Below are positions 351 through 5,108 of a DNA stretch of 5,108 nt, one piece after another (the first letter of the stretch is position 1; each line of letters begins with the position of its first letter). Below the pieces are notes generated by a model. That model was not told the DNA's origin and searched no databases. It worked only from the letters and a program-made list of their open reading frames with translations. The stretch covers positions 1-5,108 of the forward strand of contig JAJRTK010000478.1 of assembly GCA_024278345.1 (NCBI GenBank), read 5' to 3'. This DNA comes from a bacterium (GTDB lineage: Bacteria > CSSED10-310 > JAJRTK01). The position numbers were made by a program, and so were the translations under genes.

Positions 351-2642
351 ATGGCGGGCGAGGACACGAAACAACTCTTCGTGATGACTCAAAACCATCA
401 GCTTCAGCGCCATTTGTCCCAGCTTCTCCAGGAGTTCTATCCGTGGGGAGTTGTGGTTTCGGAGCCATCCCTTGTGGCTCTGCTCGAGGGTCTCCAGAAC
501 GCAACGCCAACAGCCCTGATCCTCGATGATTCAGCGGGCTCCGAGCTCCTGGCCGAAGGTATTTCGTGTGCCAAAGGGCTGGTCCCATCGCTTCCTATCG
601 CCGTCGTTGCCGTGGAGCAGGTTCCAGAGATCGAGCTTCGGAGAGTCGGCGCACGGATCGTCTTGTCCTGGCCGCAAGACCGGGAACAGCTAGACGACTG
701 GCTTCGCCACCTATTTTCTCCGGGAGATCAAGGGGGAACCTCCAAGAGAGCTGGCCAGGATGAATCCGGTGCCACCTGGCTCCGGATGGGAGTTTCCGCC
801 AGCGCTTCGTGGCGGCCGAGCAACTTTCCTTGCCGAGCCGCCTGTCCCGTGGGCACCAATGCGGGGGGGTATTCAAGCCTGGTGGCCCAGGGCCGCTACC
901 GCGAAGCCTACGCTCTGGCGCGGCGCCCCAATCCGCTGGCATCGGTCTGTGGCTGGATTTGCGCGCATCCCTGCGAAGTGGCCTGCCGGCGGGATCGATT
1001 GGATCAGCCCATCGCCATTCGCGCCCTCAAGCGATTCGTCACGGAGCGGTGCGGACCGGAGAGCGGGCGGGACTTCGACGAGATCCTCAGCATCGTCGAG
1101 ATCCCCAGGCCCAGGATTGCTGGTGGGAAAGTGGCGATCATCGGCGCGGGCCCGGCAGGCCTTGCGGCTGCGCACGATTTGGCGCTCATGGGGCACACTG
1201 TGGTGATTTTTGATCGGGCCCTCTTGGCGGGGGGAATGCTTCGAGCGGGGATTCCCAGATATCGTCTCCCACGGGAAACCCTGGACCTCGAGGTGGAGTT
1301 CATCCGCTATCTGGGCGTGGAATTCCGCATGGGGGTGGAAATTGGATCTGAGGTCTCTTTCCAGGAGCTCCGCCAGGAGTACGACGCTGTTTTTCTTGCT
1401 CCCGGCTGCGGGACCGGTCGAAATCTGTCGATTCCTGGAAGTGAACTGGAAGGCGTGATCAACGCCGTGAGCTTTTTGGCCCACGTCAACCTCGGGCACC
1501 CCATCGCCATCGGCCAAGAGGTCGTTGTCATCGGTGGTGGAAATGTTGCCTACGACGTGGCGCGGAGCGCACAATTGCTCTTCGTGGCTGACGGTGAGTC
1601 GGGGCGCCTTGCTCTGGACAGCGCCAGGATCGCCGCTCGTTCTCTCCGGCGCAAGGTGACGATGGTGGCGCTGGAGGCCCCCAGCGAAATGCTGGCAGAC
1701 CCCACGGAGATCCGCGAGGCAGCCGAAGAGGGAGTGCGGCTGGTGACTCGGCGAGGACCCGCTGAGATTCAGGGCGAAGGCGGGCGAGTCAGCGGCCTGG
1801 TGACTCTGCAAGTGGAGCGCGTTTTCGACCAGAAGGGCAAGTTCAGCCCGATCCTCACGCCCGGAACAGAGCAGATCATCCAAGCAGACACCGTGATCAT
1901 CGCCATTGGCCAGGTGGCGGATCTCCGGTTTCTTGGAGAGGAGCACGGACTGGAGATCACTCCACGTTGGACCGTCAAGGTCGAGCCCAAGACCCTCGCC
2001 ACATCGGACCCGCGTGTTTTCGCCGGTGGCGACGTAGTATGGGGTCCTCGCATTGCCATCGATGCCATTGCCGATGGCCGCAAGGCCGCCCGCTCAATCG
2101 ATACTCTTATCACCGGAAGAGGCGACGAGGCCAAAGAGCTTGTCTACCGAACCTTCCCCACCGATGGATACTCGCATCCTTTCGCCGTGGGCGACTACGA
2201 AAAGATCCCGCGGCATCGCGTTCCCATCCGCGCTCCGGACGCCAGAGCCCTCCGACAGCCAGTGGAACTGGGTTACGGCGAGGAGCAGGCCAGGGAGGAG
2301 GGCAGCCGATGCCTCCACTGCTGGATCAACACGATCTTCTATTCCACCGCGGTCAACGGATCGGAATGCATCCAGTGCGGCGGATGCGTGGATGTTTGCC
2401 CCGAAGACTGCATCGATCTGATTTCCCTGGTCCGCGTGGCGGGGGAAGAAGATGGAAACCGGAGGCTCTTGCCTGATGGAACGGAGTTCACCATCAGCGG
2501 TGCCGCGATGATCAAGGACGAGACAAGCTGCATTCGCTGCGGCCTCTGTGCCCGGAGGTGCCCGGCGGAAGTCATCTCCATGGAGGCTTTTTACCAGAAA
2601 GACGAGCTCCCCTGGATCCAACATGCCGATATCTCGGTCTGA
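351..2642 (+). CDS. GltD-like FAD/Fe-S NAD(P)H oxidoreductase with N-terminal receiver-like domain
   Basis: 763 residues, no membrane segment, presumably cytoplasmic. Residues 8-122 follow the alternating strand/helix pattern of a CheY-like receiver. D59 or D60 could be the phosphoacceptor, but the acidic pair after strand 1 is missing and the Lys of KP is Trp (W107-P108), so it looks degenerate. A GltD-type cysteine region follows (C161, C165, C200, C204, C208, C212). Next come the FAD motif GAGPAG (265-270), a second dinucleotide motif GGGNVA (395-400), and the C-terminal FAD motif AGGD (558-561). The C-terminus has CLHC (654-657) and a two-cluster ferredoxin module, C673-x2-C676-x2-C679-x3-C683 and C727-x2-C730-x2-C733-x3-C737. 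The family moves electrons between NAD(P)H and iron-sulfur clusters. As first gene of a Rieske/cytochrome b cluster it is likely the NAD(P)H module of that complex, not glutamate synthase: no glutamate synthase large-subunit gene is in this window. The enzyme class is firm; partner and direction are inferred. Confidence 0.9.
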   Translation: MAGEDTKQLFVMTQNHQLQRHLSQLLQEFYPWGVVVSEPSLVALLEGLQNATPTALILDDSAGSELLAEGISCAKGLVPSLPIAVVAVEQVPEIELRRVGARIVLSWPQDREQLDDWLRHLFSPGDQGGTSKRAGQDESGATWLRMGVSASASWRPSNFPCRAACPVGTNAGGYSSLVAQGRYREAYALARRPNPLASVCGWICAHPCEVACRRDRLDQPIAIRALKRFVTERCGPESGRDFDEILSIVEIPRPRIAGGKVAIIGAGPAGLAAAHDLALMGHTVVIFDRALLAGGMLRAGIPRYRLPRETLDLEVEFIRYLGVEFRMGVEIGSEVSFQELRQEYDAVFLAPGCGTGRNLSIPGSELEGVINAVSFLAHVNLGHPIAIGQEVVVIGGGNVAYDVARSAQLLFVADGESGRLALDSARIAARSLRRKVTMVALEAPSEMLADPTEIREAAEEGVRLVTRRGPAEIQGEGGRVSGLVTLQVERVFDQKGKFSPILTPGTEQIIQADTVIIAIGQVADLRFLGEEHGLEITPRWTVKVEPKTLATSDPRVFAGGDVVWGPRIAIDAIADGRKAARSIDTLITGRGDEAKELVYRTFPTDGYSHPFAVGDYEKIPRHRVPIRAPDARALRQPVELGYGEEQAREEGSRCLHCWINTIFYSTAVNGSECIQCGGCVDVCPEDCIDLISLVRVAGEEDGNRRLLPDGTEFTISGAAMIKDETSCIRCGLCARRCPAEVISMEAFYQKDELPWIQHADISV

Positions 2643-2657
2643 GCCGGGACTCAGACC
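2636..2657 (+). other. Perfect stem-loop spanning the flavoprotein stop codon
   Basis: GGTCTGAG (2636-2643) and CTCAGACC (2650-2657) are exact reverse complements with a six-base loop, CCGGGA. The left arm contains the TGA stop (2640-2642). No run of T follows on either strand, so it does not look like an intrinsic terminator. It could limit read-through, protect or process the mRNA between the first gene and the rest of the cluster, or be chance. The remaining gap to 2772 holds no gene. Confidence 0.5.
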
Positions 2658-2760
2658 ACAAACCGGTTGATGCGCGACCGCGGGATGGAAAGAACAGACT
2701 AAGAAACCAATGCTGCTTCCCAAGATCCCGTGAGTAGAAGGCAAGCAGCCAAGAAAGAGC

Positions 2761-2764
2761 GAGG
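2761..2764 (+). promoter_or_regulatory. Ribosome binding site for the GTG start of the Rieske gene
   Basis: GAGG lies eight bases before the GTG at 2773. Upstream in this frame a TGA occurs at 2731-2733 and there is no ATG between, so the non-ATG start is forced if the twin-arginine region is to be kept. A TTG at 2776 is the only close alternative. Confidence 0.6.
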
Positions 2765-2772
2765 TCCAAAAA

Positions 2773-3258
2773 GTGTTGCTCGACGATTTAGCCGAACAAG
2801 CTGAAGAAAACGAACCGAACCGCCGAGAGTTCTTGGCACAAGCTGGAGTCGCCTCCCTTGGTGTGGCAACGGTGGGTACGGGAACGGTCGCCGTGGGATT
2901 CCTCTCGCCGGCGGTGCTGTACGAACCGCCGAAAAAGGTTTCTGCCGGCACCCTGGGCGATCATCCGGAAGGCACGGTGCATTTCTCGCCGGAGTACAAG
3001 CTGTACGTGATCCATCGGAAGCGGCGACTTTACGCCTTGAGCGCCATCTGTACGCATCTCGGATGCATGACGCGGTATCAGCGAGATTCGCGGGAGATCC
3101 ACTGCCCCTGCCACGGAAGCCGGTTCTCGCTGGAGGGTGAGGTTCTGAATGGGCCTGCGGCCGAGCCTCTTCCTCGGTTTCCCATCGCCCTTCAAGAAGA
3201 GCAGCTCGTCATTGATCGCGGGCGCGAGGTGGGTCCTGATGAAGCACTCGTAATCTGA
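2773..3258 (+). CDS. Rieske 2Fe-2S protein of a cytochrome bc/b6f-type complex
   Basis: 161 residues with a GTG start. It carries electrons from quinol oxidised at the Qo site to a c-type cytochrome. A short acidic N-terminus precedes a twin-arginine motif (N16-R-R-E-F-L21) and one hydrophobic segment (about 24-49), so it is probably exported by Tat and kept as a membrane anchor. The cluster boxes are C93-T-H-L-G-C98 and C111-P-C-H-G-S116. Ligands should be C93, H95, C111 and H114, with a C98-C113 disulfide. The Ser after the second box is present, but the Tyr that raises redox potential in many homologues is Phe (F118), suggesting a lower potential. Length fits compact bacterial Rieske subunits. 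The cytochrome b gene begins 11 bases downstream. Equivalent genes are called petC or qcrA; I leave the symbol open. Confidence 0.95.
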
Positions 3259-3269
3259 AGGAGCCATCC

Positions 3270-4049
3270 ATGAGCAGCTTCCCGAAGAAAAAACGCCCGG
3301 GCTTCGCCAAGAGGGTTTGGCGCTCCATTGTTCGCCACGGCGCTCCCAACACGAACCGGAACCGATCCCTGGCGGTCTTCACGAATCTCTTTCTCCACAT
3401 TCACCCGGTGAAGGTCCGGCGCCGAGCCATGCGGTTCCGGGCGACCTATTACCTTGGCGGACTCACAGCGGCGACCTTCTTTTTGCTCGTGGTGTCGGGC
3501 GCCTTCCTGATGATCTACTACCGGCCGGATCCCCTGCGAGCCTACGGGGATATGAAGGATCTTCAGTACGTGGTCTGGATGGGCCGGTTCCTACGCAATC
3601 TTCACCGCTGGGCGGCGCACACGATGGTGCTCTTGGCGTTTCTTCACCTCTGCCGAGTCTTTTTTGCCGCGGCGTACAAGCCGCCTCGGGAGTTCAACTG
3701 GGTGATCGGCGTCGTTTTGATGGGCCTGACGCTTCTTCTGAGTTACACGGGCTACCTGCTTCCGTGGGATCAGTTGGCCTTTTGGGGCGTGTCCGTGGGG
3801 ACCAACATCATCAGTGCGATGCCCGCGGGCGGTGACATGGTCAAGCTCTTGCTTTTGGGGGGAACAGGCGTAGGCGGAAACGCTCTCATCCGATTCTACG
3901 TCCTACACTGTTTCATTCTGCCGGCGGTGTTGACCGTGGGGATCGCGCTCCACATCTGGCGCTTCCGGAAGGATGGCGGCGTCTGTCTGCCCCCGTATGA
4001 GGGGCCGGATCAACAGGCAACGACGGCATCGAAAGGGGGATCCCCATGA
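3270..4049 (+). CDS. petB: Cytochrome b6-type subunit (N-terminal, four-helix half of cytochrome b)
   Basis: 259 residues; it binds two b haems and forms part of the quinol-oxidising and quinone-reducing sites. About 57 basic, hydrophilic residues precede four predicted membrane helices (roughly 58-83, 108-132, 144-165, 205-231). The haem ligands are H112 and H126 in helix B and H213 and H228 in helix D. The 15-residue step in helix D is that of b6, not mitochondrial-type cytochrome b. Also b6-like are HRW (112-114), PRE (139-141) and LPWDQ (164-168). The YCLGG motif of b6, whose Cys binds haem c_i, reads YYLGG here (Y61), so that haem should not be covalently attached in the usual way. AAGGAG at 3258-3263 is six bases before the ATG. 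The gene ends in an ATGA overlap with the next, indicating translational coupling and a split cytochrome b. Confidence 0.94.
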
Positions 4050-4744
4050 AACGCTTCGAACCGGTCATCGGACAAGACGTGGGCGAGGTTCCCGTGAGGC
4101 TCCTCTTCACTCAGGACGAAGCCGGCGTTTTGGTGGACCAGGCCCAGGAGCCCATGGTCATGACCGTGCCTCACTTGATCCTCCGGGAGCTCATCGCCTT
4201 CCTGGTGCTGACTTGGATCCTGGTGATGGTCTCTCTTCTCTGGGACGCGCCTTTGGAGGCGATTGCGAATCCGAGCCAGACCCCGAATCCATCGAAGGCG
4301 CCGTGGTATTTCCTTGGCTTGCAGGAACTGCTCCACTACTACCCTCCCCTGATTGCGGGGATCGTCTTGCCGGGCCTTGCGGTCCTGGCCCTTGTCATCA
4401 TCCCCTATTTTGAAATCAACATCCGGCGGCCTCCTCTTTTCGATGAAAAACGAGGCAAGCGGCTGGCGGCGCTCTGGGTGACCATCATCGGGGCCTGCGT
4501 GGCCATGAGCCTGCCGGCTGAAGTGATGCCCTGGGTCTTGGTAATTCCGACTCTGCTGGGAGGTCTGGTCATCACGGGGAGCGCGTTGGGACTTGGAGTC
4601 TTGGCGCGGCTTCAGGACCGTTCCCTGGCTTTCTGGCTCATGTCCTGGTTCATCCTGGAGCTCACCGTTCTCACCATCGTGGGCACCTTCTTCCGAGGTC
4701 CATTTTGGATGTTGACTCTACCCTGGATCGAGGGGATTTACTGA
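4046..4744 (+). CDS. Cytochrome b C-terminal subunit (subunit IV-like, extended)
   Basis: 232 residues; it supplies the other half of cytochrome b, including most of the Qo site, and no b-haem ligands. A hydrophilic N-terminus (1-42) is followed by about five predicted membrane helices (roughly 46-66, 102-121, 140-157, 161-187, 194-213), more than the three of plant subunit IV. The Qo motif PEWY is replaced by APWY (85-88), followed by FLGLQELL. This pattern is familiar to me from menaquinol-type and planctomycete/nitrospira-like complexes. A conserved-looking GTFFRGP (213-219) closes the last helix. Start: AGGGGGA (4034-4040) five bases before an ATG overlapping the previous stop by four bases. 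PetD is the nearest named relative, but the extra helices make the symbol uncertain. Confidence 0.9.
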
Positions 4745-5108
4745 TGGAAAACATCAATAAGGACTACAGCCGCACCGTGGTTCTCTTCGCCCTCGTCTCA
4801 GTGGGCTTCACCGTCACGCTCGCCGTGGCGCCACTAAGAGACGCTTGGACATCCTGGCGGCAAACTCAGGGGGAGTACGTCGAAGAGGCCAGGACCCGTG
4901 GATTCGGAGCCAACTTCACCGTGGGGATCCGACAGATCTGGAACGAAGAGCTGGGAATCGTGGACCGTTGTGTCACTTGCCACCTGGGGATGGGAGACGA
5001 CACTCCCCTGCCCGGACAGGCTCTTTTCGAAGAGCATCCGCCCATTCCCCATTCGACTCGAGCCTTTGGCTGCACCACCTGCCACCGGGGGCAGGGCTGG
5101 GCCACCAA
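4744..5108 (+). CDS. Membrane-anchored multihaem cytochrome c, N-terminal part (truncated by window end)
   Basis: 121 codons plus two bases are visible, with no stop before the edge. It begins at ATG 4744, sharing one base with the preceding TGA, with GAGGGG (4730-4735) eight bases upstream. Residues 11-30 form a hydrophobic segment after a short N-terminus containing K6 and R10, most likely an uncleaved anchor placing the rest outside the cytoplasmic membrane. Two haem c attachment motifs are present, CVTCH (76-80) and CTTCH (110-114), each with GC-rich, Gly-rich surroundings (RCVTCHLG, GCTTCHRGQG). Such proteins often carry more haems further on. By position it replaces cytochrome f or c1 as electron acceptor of the Rieske protein. 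The number of haems and full length cannot be judged here. Confidence 0.9.
   Translation, partial: MENINKDYSRTVVLFALVSVGFTVTLAVAPLRDAWTSWRQTQGEYVEEARTRGFGANFTVGIRQIWNEELGIVDRCVTCHLGMGDDTPLPGQALFEEHPPIPHSTRAFGCTTCHRGQGWAT

Follow-up and report, generated by a model that had tools for sequence, protein, structure and literature searches.

Gene content of the locus

The window analysed here is a complete contig of 5108 bp (C421; JAJRTK010000478.1 in GenBank assembly GCA_024278345.1), and it encodes on a single strand a set of Rieske and cytochrome b proteins led by a flavoprotein of the flavin adenine dinucleotide (FAD) and iron-sulfur (Fe-S) type (Table 1). A reading made from the sequence alone had placed there a flavoprotein, a Rieske protein, a split cytochrome b and a multihaem cytochrome c, with tight junctions among the last four genes, and had suggested that the ensemble connects quinones to nicotinamide adenine dinucleotides, NAD(P). 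Open reading frames (ORFs) and Pfam matches bear out this layout; the junctions are, in gene order, 130 bp between the flavoprotein and Rieske genes, 11 bp, a 4-bp overlap and a stop/start overlap. As the window is an entire contig, its cytochrome c is incomplete there, with two CxxCH motifs. Its tetranucleotide profile matches that of other contigs of the same genome (r 0.92-0.94), where two further loci with identical gene order (C183 and C457) bring the total to three. Given these two extra copies and the recurrence of the arrangement in many phyla, it is not due to chance. An Rfam scan of the window gave zero matches, and promoter and terminator scans of it gave scores no better than those of shuffled sequences. 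The same genome holds a fourth, distant cytochrome b/Rieske pair (L056, contig C263), with no flavoprotein nearby.

Table 1. Features of the window (C421) and of contig C228, its likely continuation
Feature	Position	Strand	Basis
Flavoprotein (FAD, Fe-S), GltD/NfnA-like, 763 aa; 2x[4Fe-4S] ferredoxin module at C-terminus	351-2642	+	ORF from ATG 351, AAGGAG upstream; Pfam
N-terminal extension of flavoprotein, about 150 aa	351-800	+	Window protein only; homologues begin near aa 150; pLDDT about 50
N-terminal [4Fe-4S] cysteines C161, C165, C200, C204, C208, C212	831-989	+	Kept in 54-58/62 linked homologues, remainder mostly gaps
Glu442, predicted acidic residue of NAD site (VALE; YRR in NADPH enzymes)	1674-1676	+	Alignment to NfnA 9n5u and StnC 8oh5
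Ferredoxin module, two CxxCxxCxxxC sets (C673-C683, C727-C737)	2367-2561	+	Homologue alignment
Rieske [2Fe-2S] protein, RREFL-type signal	2773-3258	+	Pfam Rieske 5e-13
Four-helix cytochrome b6-type subunit	3270-4049	+	Pfam Cytochrome_B 6e-41
His43, position of interface-haem ligand proposed for Kuste4571	3396-3398	+	Aligned to His43 of Brocadia orthologue
Tyr61, at haem cN (ci) Cys position of b6f-type proteins	3450-3452	+	Alignment
Subunit-IV-type protein (C-terminal cytochrome b)	4046-4744	+	Pfam Cytochrom_B_C
Multihaem cytochrome c, N-terminal part, 2 CxxCH	4744-5108 (contig end)	+	ORF
Cytochrome c remainder, 7 more CxxCH	C228, L303:2-1885		Joined to window by frame and homology
Cyc2-like fused cytochrome-porin, 411 aa	C228, L303:2316-3548		Downstream of multihaem c

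A flavoprotein that travels with its Rieske/cytochrome b set

When 386 diverse genomes were searched separately with the cytochrome b and with the flavoprotein, the best flavoprotein matches (at least 357 bits, reaching the ferredoxin module) adjoined an ExtP-like cytochrome b in 23/23 cases, while weaker GltD-like matches, ending before the ferredoxin module or matching at 35-38%, were mostly not beside such a cytochrome b. Among 60 relatives, the flavoprotein stands beside Rieske/cytochrome b genes solely in the ExtP-related cytochrome b group; in the same genomes, none accompanies the roughly 24 canonical cytochrome b loci of b6- or bc1-like type. Conserved synteny, seen from both search directions, supports the view that the flavoprotein belongs with the Rieske/cytochrome b set. 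The co-occurrence that the sequence-only reading had put forward as a check is thus observed, and its statement that canonical bc1 and b6f operons lack such a subunit holds as well in these genomes. A scan of named genomes found the arrangement in Acidobacteriota (including Geothrix campi), Chloroflexota, Planctomycetota (Brocadia and one Phycisphaeraceae), Binatota and Verrucomicrobiota, and also in Zixibacteria, Abyssobacteria, Nitrospirae, one deltaproteobacterium and one Bacillota metagenome-assembled genome.

The flavoprotein matches Pyr_redox_2 (at the 1e-32 level), Fer4_20 and two Fer4 domains of Pfam. NfnABC, StnABC and NfnA are its closest solved relatives in the PDB, by sequence and by fold, and its AlphaFold 2 (AF2) model has a mean predicted local distance difference test score (pLDDT) of 77. 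NCBIfam models of the GltD type score it below their cut-off, and the cluster contains no GltB gene. Residues for four [4Fe-4S] clusters, for the FAD site and for the NAD site are conserved in linked homologues, all cysteines of the ferredoxin module being retained in 60/62 of them. The proposed link to NAD(P) stands as far as these residues are concerned, with the correction that in this class NAD(H) rather than NADP(H) is the predicted nucleotide. The nucleotide site reads (V/C)(C/S/A)LE in the class of the window, where NADPH enzymes such as NfnA have YRR; by the rule that applies to Rossmann folds, the former would bind NADH and the latter NADPH. The acidic residue, Glu442, is nearly invariant in group A3.

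The flavoproteins of the window's class form one clade (support 100/100). The approximately unbiased (AU) test rejects a clade uniting class A with the Kuste4570-type protein of an anammox Brocadia (L139; p 0.025), and rejects neither a clade of class A with the Chloroflexota flavoproteins (p 0.397) nor one clade for all linked flavoproteins (p 0.093). More than one recruitment of the flavoprotein appears likely from these trees, but is not proven.

Rieske protein, cytochrome b and the site of haem cN

The Rieske motif of the window, CTHLGC...CPCHGSRF, retains its Ser and has Phe in place of Tyr. The same pattern, Ser without Tyr, is reported for the anammox protein Kustd1480, which has a potential of +335 mV (PMC12954380), and the second and third best PDB matches of the Rieske protein, 9rk3 and 9rk4, are by name the anammox Rieske proteins of that study. 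In the cytochrome b, the b-haem ligands H112, H126, H213 and H228 are conserved across all aligned linked loci. The best family models for the cytochrome b and the subunit-IV-type protein are the NCBIfam ExtP and ExtQ cytochromes of selenite/tellurite operons, though neither score reaches its curated cut-off (254.8 of 290 and 50 of 150, respectively), and a motif survey finds KAPWY in place of PEWY in the subunit-IV-type protein. The window departs from canonical b6f and bc1 complexes in having a multihaem cytochrome c, not cytochrome f or c1, and, as regards b6f, in having Tyr61 at the position of the cysteine that carries haem cN.

This last feature, together with the nucleotide site of the flavoprotein, separates classes of loci. 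Where a full flavoprotein is present and the cN site is readable (n=75), the cysteine is lost in 62 loci and kept in 13. The two traits pair: 49 loci combine the acidic residue with absence of the cN cysteine and seven combine YRR with its presence, the mixed cases being one locus with the acidic residue and Cys (L153) and two with neither acid nor Cys (L041, L114). Both Brocadia anammox types (L139 and L308, from the one genome of Candidatus Brocadia WS118) have YRR and the cN cysteine. The window falls in a distinct large class, with members in Acidobacteriota, Binatota, Verrucomicrobiota and others, that lacks the haem cN cysteine and has a nucleotide site of predicted NADH type.

Partners on the positive side

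Several kinds of terminal enzyme are encoded after the module. Genes for CcoN, CcoO and CcoG of a cbb3 oxidase come after it at one of the two other loci of the window's own genome (C183) and at L108, L118 and L138; a NapA-like molybdoenzyme with a NapH-like Fe-S protein follows at the other (C457) and at L051, L121, L128 and L141. NarG-like and NarH proteins are found in this place at L045, L107, L114, L132, L220, L225 and L227, NosZ at L053 and, by similarity, at L218 and L219, and an octahaem cytochrome c at L139. The L053 locus (7664-14689) reads flavoprotein, Rieske protein, cytochrome b and pentahaem cytochrome c, with the nitrous oxide reductase NosZ directly after. At L051 a HAO-like octahaem cytochrome lies upstream of the flavoprotein-Rieske/cytochrome b-NapA-like cluster, and at L231 (7207-9993) a decahaem cytochrome of the OmcA/MtrC type adjoins the module, a hint of extracellular electron transfer.

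For the window itself, the partner has to be sought beyond the end of the contig. A search of the contigs of the genome, with the multihaem cytochrome of a relative as query, aligned query residues 18-126 to the window and 128-599 to the extreme start of contig C228. The two ends have only three bases in common, CAA, and the reading frame runs on, so that C228 is the likely continuation of the window, by a join that we infer; the joined cytochrome would have about 748 aa and nine CxxCH motifs. It is followed on C228 by a mono-haem cytochrome c and then by a Cyc2-like cytochrome-porin, which probably belongs to the same operon as the window. Cyc2 is defined by AXPXFAR[Q/K][T/Y], one CXXCH with PXL after it, a length of at least 365 aa and an OprO/OprP-like barrel (Keffer et al., PMC8406198). 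The N-terminus of the protein of C228, AIPAFARKH-NLT-CASCH-SAM-PYL, agrees with this except in one letter (H for T/Y), its single CXXCH being followed four residues later by PXL in a chain of 411 aa; OprO (Z 19.6) and OprP (Z 19.2) are among the top matches of its AF2 model (pLDDT 62), tied with other porins. The motif is AFPIFARKY in Geothrix, and the Terriglobia versions have FSR in place of FAR.

A Cyc2-like gene is found beside 22/29 linked loci with Tyr, Trp or Phe at the cN site, and beside 0/34 of those with another non-Cys residue and 0/13 of those with Cys. Among the seven Tyr/Trp/Phe loci without such a neighbour are the NosZ group and loci at a contig end. The Cyc2-like outer-membrane cytochrome-porin is likely to be the high-potential partner of the window locus, which bears on the direction of electron flow. 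Rieske/cytochrome b loci of a Myxococcaceae (L081) and a Chlorobiaceae (L142), devoid of both flavoprotein and cN cysteine, have a Cyc2-like gene just upstream.

A proposed electron split between NAD(H) and cytochromes

We consider it about an even bet that the product of the locus is a reversible, quinone-bifurcating Rieske/cytochrome b complex coupled to NAD(H). At the Qp site, on the positive side, oxidation of quinol would release one electron to the Rieske protein and from there to the multihaem cytochrome c. The second electron would cross to the negative side by way of the b haems, be accepted from haem bN by the ferredoxin module, perhaps via a dimer-interface haem near His43, and reach NAD+ through the [4Fe-4S] clusters and FAD. 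With the haem cN site gone, the negative-side exit has apparently been rebuilt, from quinone reduction to an Fe-S/flavin route. The place of contact is suggested by 13 loci of Acidimicrobiia (for example L122:4128-4538), where the flavoprotein is absent and a stand-alone 2x[4Fe-4S] ferredoxin directly precedes cytochrome b, subunit IV, Rieske protein and cytochrome c: the ferredoxin module may be what touches cytochrome b. This agrees with a published AlphaFold 3 model in which Arg511 of the flavoprotein is near the proposed interface haem (PMC12954380), a residue that, by alignment, falls inside the ferredoxin module.

The electron sink on the positive side would vary with the locus: oxygen via cbb3, nitrous oxide, nitrate, nitrite or a Cyc2-like outer-membrane cytochrome. 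Partners of the cbb3, NosZ and Nar/Nap-like kinds indicate that positive-side electrons reach strong acceptors, which would pay for the reduction of NAD+; the electron split is downhill if these electrons end on oxygen, nitrous oxide, nitrate or nitrite. Potentials are about -70 mV for menaquinone, -320 mV for NAD and +303/+335 mV for the anammox Rieske proteins (PMC12954380), with +208 mV for Cyc2 (PMC8406198). Averaging -320 and +208 gives, by our own arithmetic, -56 mV, roughly the menaquinone value, if we assume that the host uses this quinone. Energetics being nearly balanced with a partner of the Cyc2 type, the enzyme may run either way, by bifurcation (quinol giving NADH and reduced cytochrome) or by confurcation (NADH and electrons derived from Fe(II) giving quinol).

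Several observations speak against an NAD-coupled bifurcating complex. Interface-haem residues exist in the window (H43 and R233, for His43 and Arg247 in anammox), but His43 is invariant with and without the flavoprotein (76/76 linked and 55/55 unlinked ExtP-like loci); it is therefore no evidence for NAD coupling, and we rejected it as a mark of the NAD type. Among flavoprotein-free loci with a readable cN site (n=53), 38 keep the cysteine and 15 have lost it. On the tree the state of this site changes at the level of clades, and a test on independent pairs is not significant, so that it must be taken as a class trait and not as proof of correlated evolution. A strict tie between loss of cN and presence of the flavoprotein is further weakened by the Chloroflexota, the anammox bacteria, L153, L229 and L233, which keep Cys, and by the several flavoprotein-free loci that do not. 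Acidobacteriota, moreover, account for many of the hosts; they are probably heterotrophs with a surplus of NADH, for which reduction of NAD+ by quinol is not obviously useful. In the window's genome, complex I is represented by two NuoH loci, and a search confined to RuBisCO among the routes of CO2 fixation gave no match at 88% completeness; autotrophy based on RuBisCO was set aside, and a demand for NADH arising from autotrophy is not established.

Heterotrophic hosts such as Geothrix would be at ease with an enzyme working as an NADH:quinone/cytochrome c oxidoreductase, in which electrons from NADH would enter by way of FAD and Fe-S, reach the b haems and reduce quinone on the negative side, while oxidation of quinol at Qp feeds cytochrome c. 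This fused complex I-like and complex III-like route, resembling the proposed cyclic flow from ferredoxin to b6f, uses the same genes and wiring and the same NADH-type site, and a stand-alone ferredoxin version exists. Yet negative-side quinone reduction is expected to need the cN haem lost here, though bc1 manages without it, and the two complex I loci are already available for NADH oxidation; we find this route rather unlikely. That the flavoprotein is a separate soluble enzyme of the NADH:ferredoxin type, merely co-transcribed with the complex, would fit the 130-bp gap before the Rieske gene, the cbb3-type loci L108, L118 and L138, where it lies several genes off, 5 kb downstream, and the few near relatives without it (L081). 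It is made improbable by a specific linkage that holds in many phyla across several gene orders, by the convergent linkage in anammox bacteria and by the reported comigration of the Kuste4569-74 subunits (PMC12954380).

The Cyc2-like gene, likely adjacent in the window's genome and present at 22/29 of the Tyr/Trp/Phe loci against 0/47 others, opens a different path for the window's clade: entry of electrons from iron through Cyc2 and cytochromes c into a complex reversed by the proton-motive force, making both quinol and NADH, much as iron oxidisers are held to run bc1 in reverse (PMC7029218). Against such uphill flow stand the want of a RuBisCO match, the one-letter deviation of the Cyc2 motif in this genome and FSR instead of FAR in Terriglobia, and hosts that are not known as iron oxidisers; the other partners are reductases, so that the common ancestor probably ran forward. 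We regard uphill entry as highly improbable.

Relation to known systems

The precedent cited by the sequence-only reading is real: in anammox bacteria, for the Kuenenia clusters Kuste4569-74 and Kustd1480-85, it was proposed that the electrons of quinol are split, one going to the Rieske protein and a strong acceptor, the other via b haems and Fe-S clusters to NAD(P)+ (PMC12954380). The Brocadia locus L139 is of the Kuste4569-74 type, with the same numbers for His43, Arg247 and Arg511, and L308 of the Kustd1480-85 type. Kuste4569-4574 shares with the window a GltD-type flavoprotein with ferredoxin module, a Rieske protein, a b6-type cytochrome b with His43, a subunit IV and a multihaem cytochrome c. 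It differs in gene order (Rieske-flavoprotein-cytochrome b), in keeping the cN cysteine, in its NADPH-type YRR site and octahaem partner, in the probably separate descent of its flavoprotein and in a cytochrome b of another clade. Kustd1480-1485 likewise unites Rieske protein (without Tyr), cytochrome b, flavoprotein and subunit IV in one cluster, there with an 8-haem cytochrome c (PMC12954380), but its flavoprotein gene follows cytochrome b, the cN cysteine is kept and the site is YRR. The window thus has what would be expected of a locus of the anammox type in its GltD-like NAD(P) oxidoreductase, b6-like cytochrome b, subunit-IV-like protein and, once two contigs are joined, multihaem cytochrome c; it lacks the haem cN cysteine and, by the AU test, probably also common descent of its flavoprotein with Kuste4570, while its interface-haem residues, present without flavoprotein too, are not specific.

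A negative-side, NAD(P)-linked flavoprotein on a b6-type complex is familiar from chloroplasts, where cytochrome b6f binds ferredoxin-NADP+ reductase (FNR). FNR has a different, unrelated fold and lacks Fe-S clusters, and b6f has haem cN and cytochrome f where the window has neither. NfnABC, StnABC and NfnA, by contrast, are near the flavoprotein in structure, but they are soluble flavin-based bifurcating enzymes of the NADPH type (YRR), with no Rieske/cytochrome b partner.

For anammox bacteria, the idea of an NAD(P)-linked Rieske/cytochrome b complex is already in print. In the literature searched, which did not include subscription journals, we found neither a paper on this class outside anammox nor any account of its cofactor differences, the swapping of partners or the link to Cyc2. 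One may conceive, though we think it somewhat doubtful in its full breadth, of a widespread unnamed family of NADH-coupled Rieske/cytochrome b complexes, in which an Fe-S/flavin exit would replace the haem cN/quinone exit, with the module swapped between terminal enzymes for oxygen, nitrous oxide, nitrate or nitrite, and with one clade in which a single membrane enzyme would connect extracellular iron, via a Cyc2-type porin-cytochrome, with the pools of both quinone and NAD(H). The anammox proposal has so far been confined to one slow-growing, genetically intractable group; if its wiring indeed spans many phyla, including the cultivated strain Geothrix campi SG10 (locus L085), and arose repeatedly, it becomes testable in tractable organisms. 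Two classes, one without cN and with an NADH-type site, the other having both cN and an NADPH-type site, make a natural comparison for the negative-side exit, and the variety of terminal partners gives clues to the high-potential reactions that pay for it, a point previously open for Kustd1480-85.

Finally, the flavoprotein of the window carries an N-terminal extension, which has no match in Pfam or other families; it alternates strands and helices and might, by eye and with low confidence, resemble a receiver domain.

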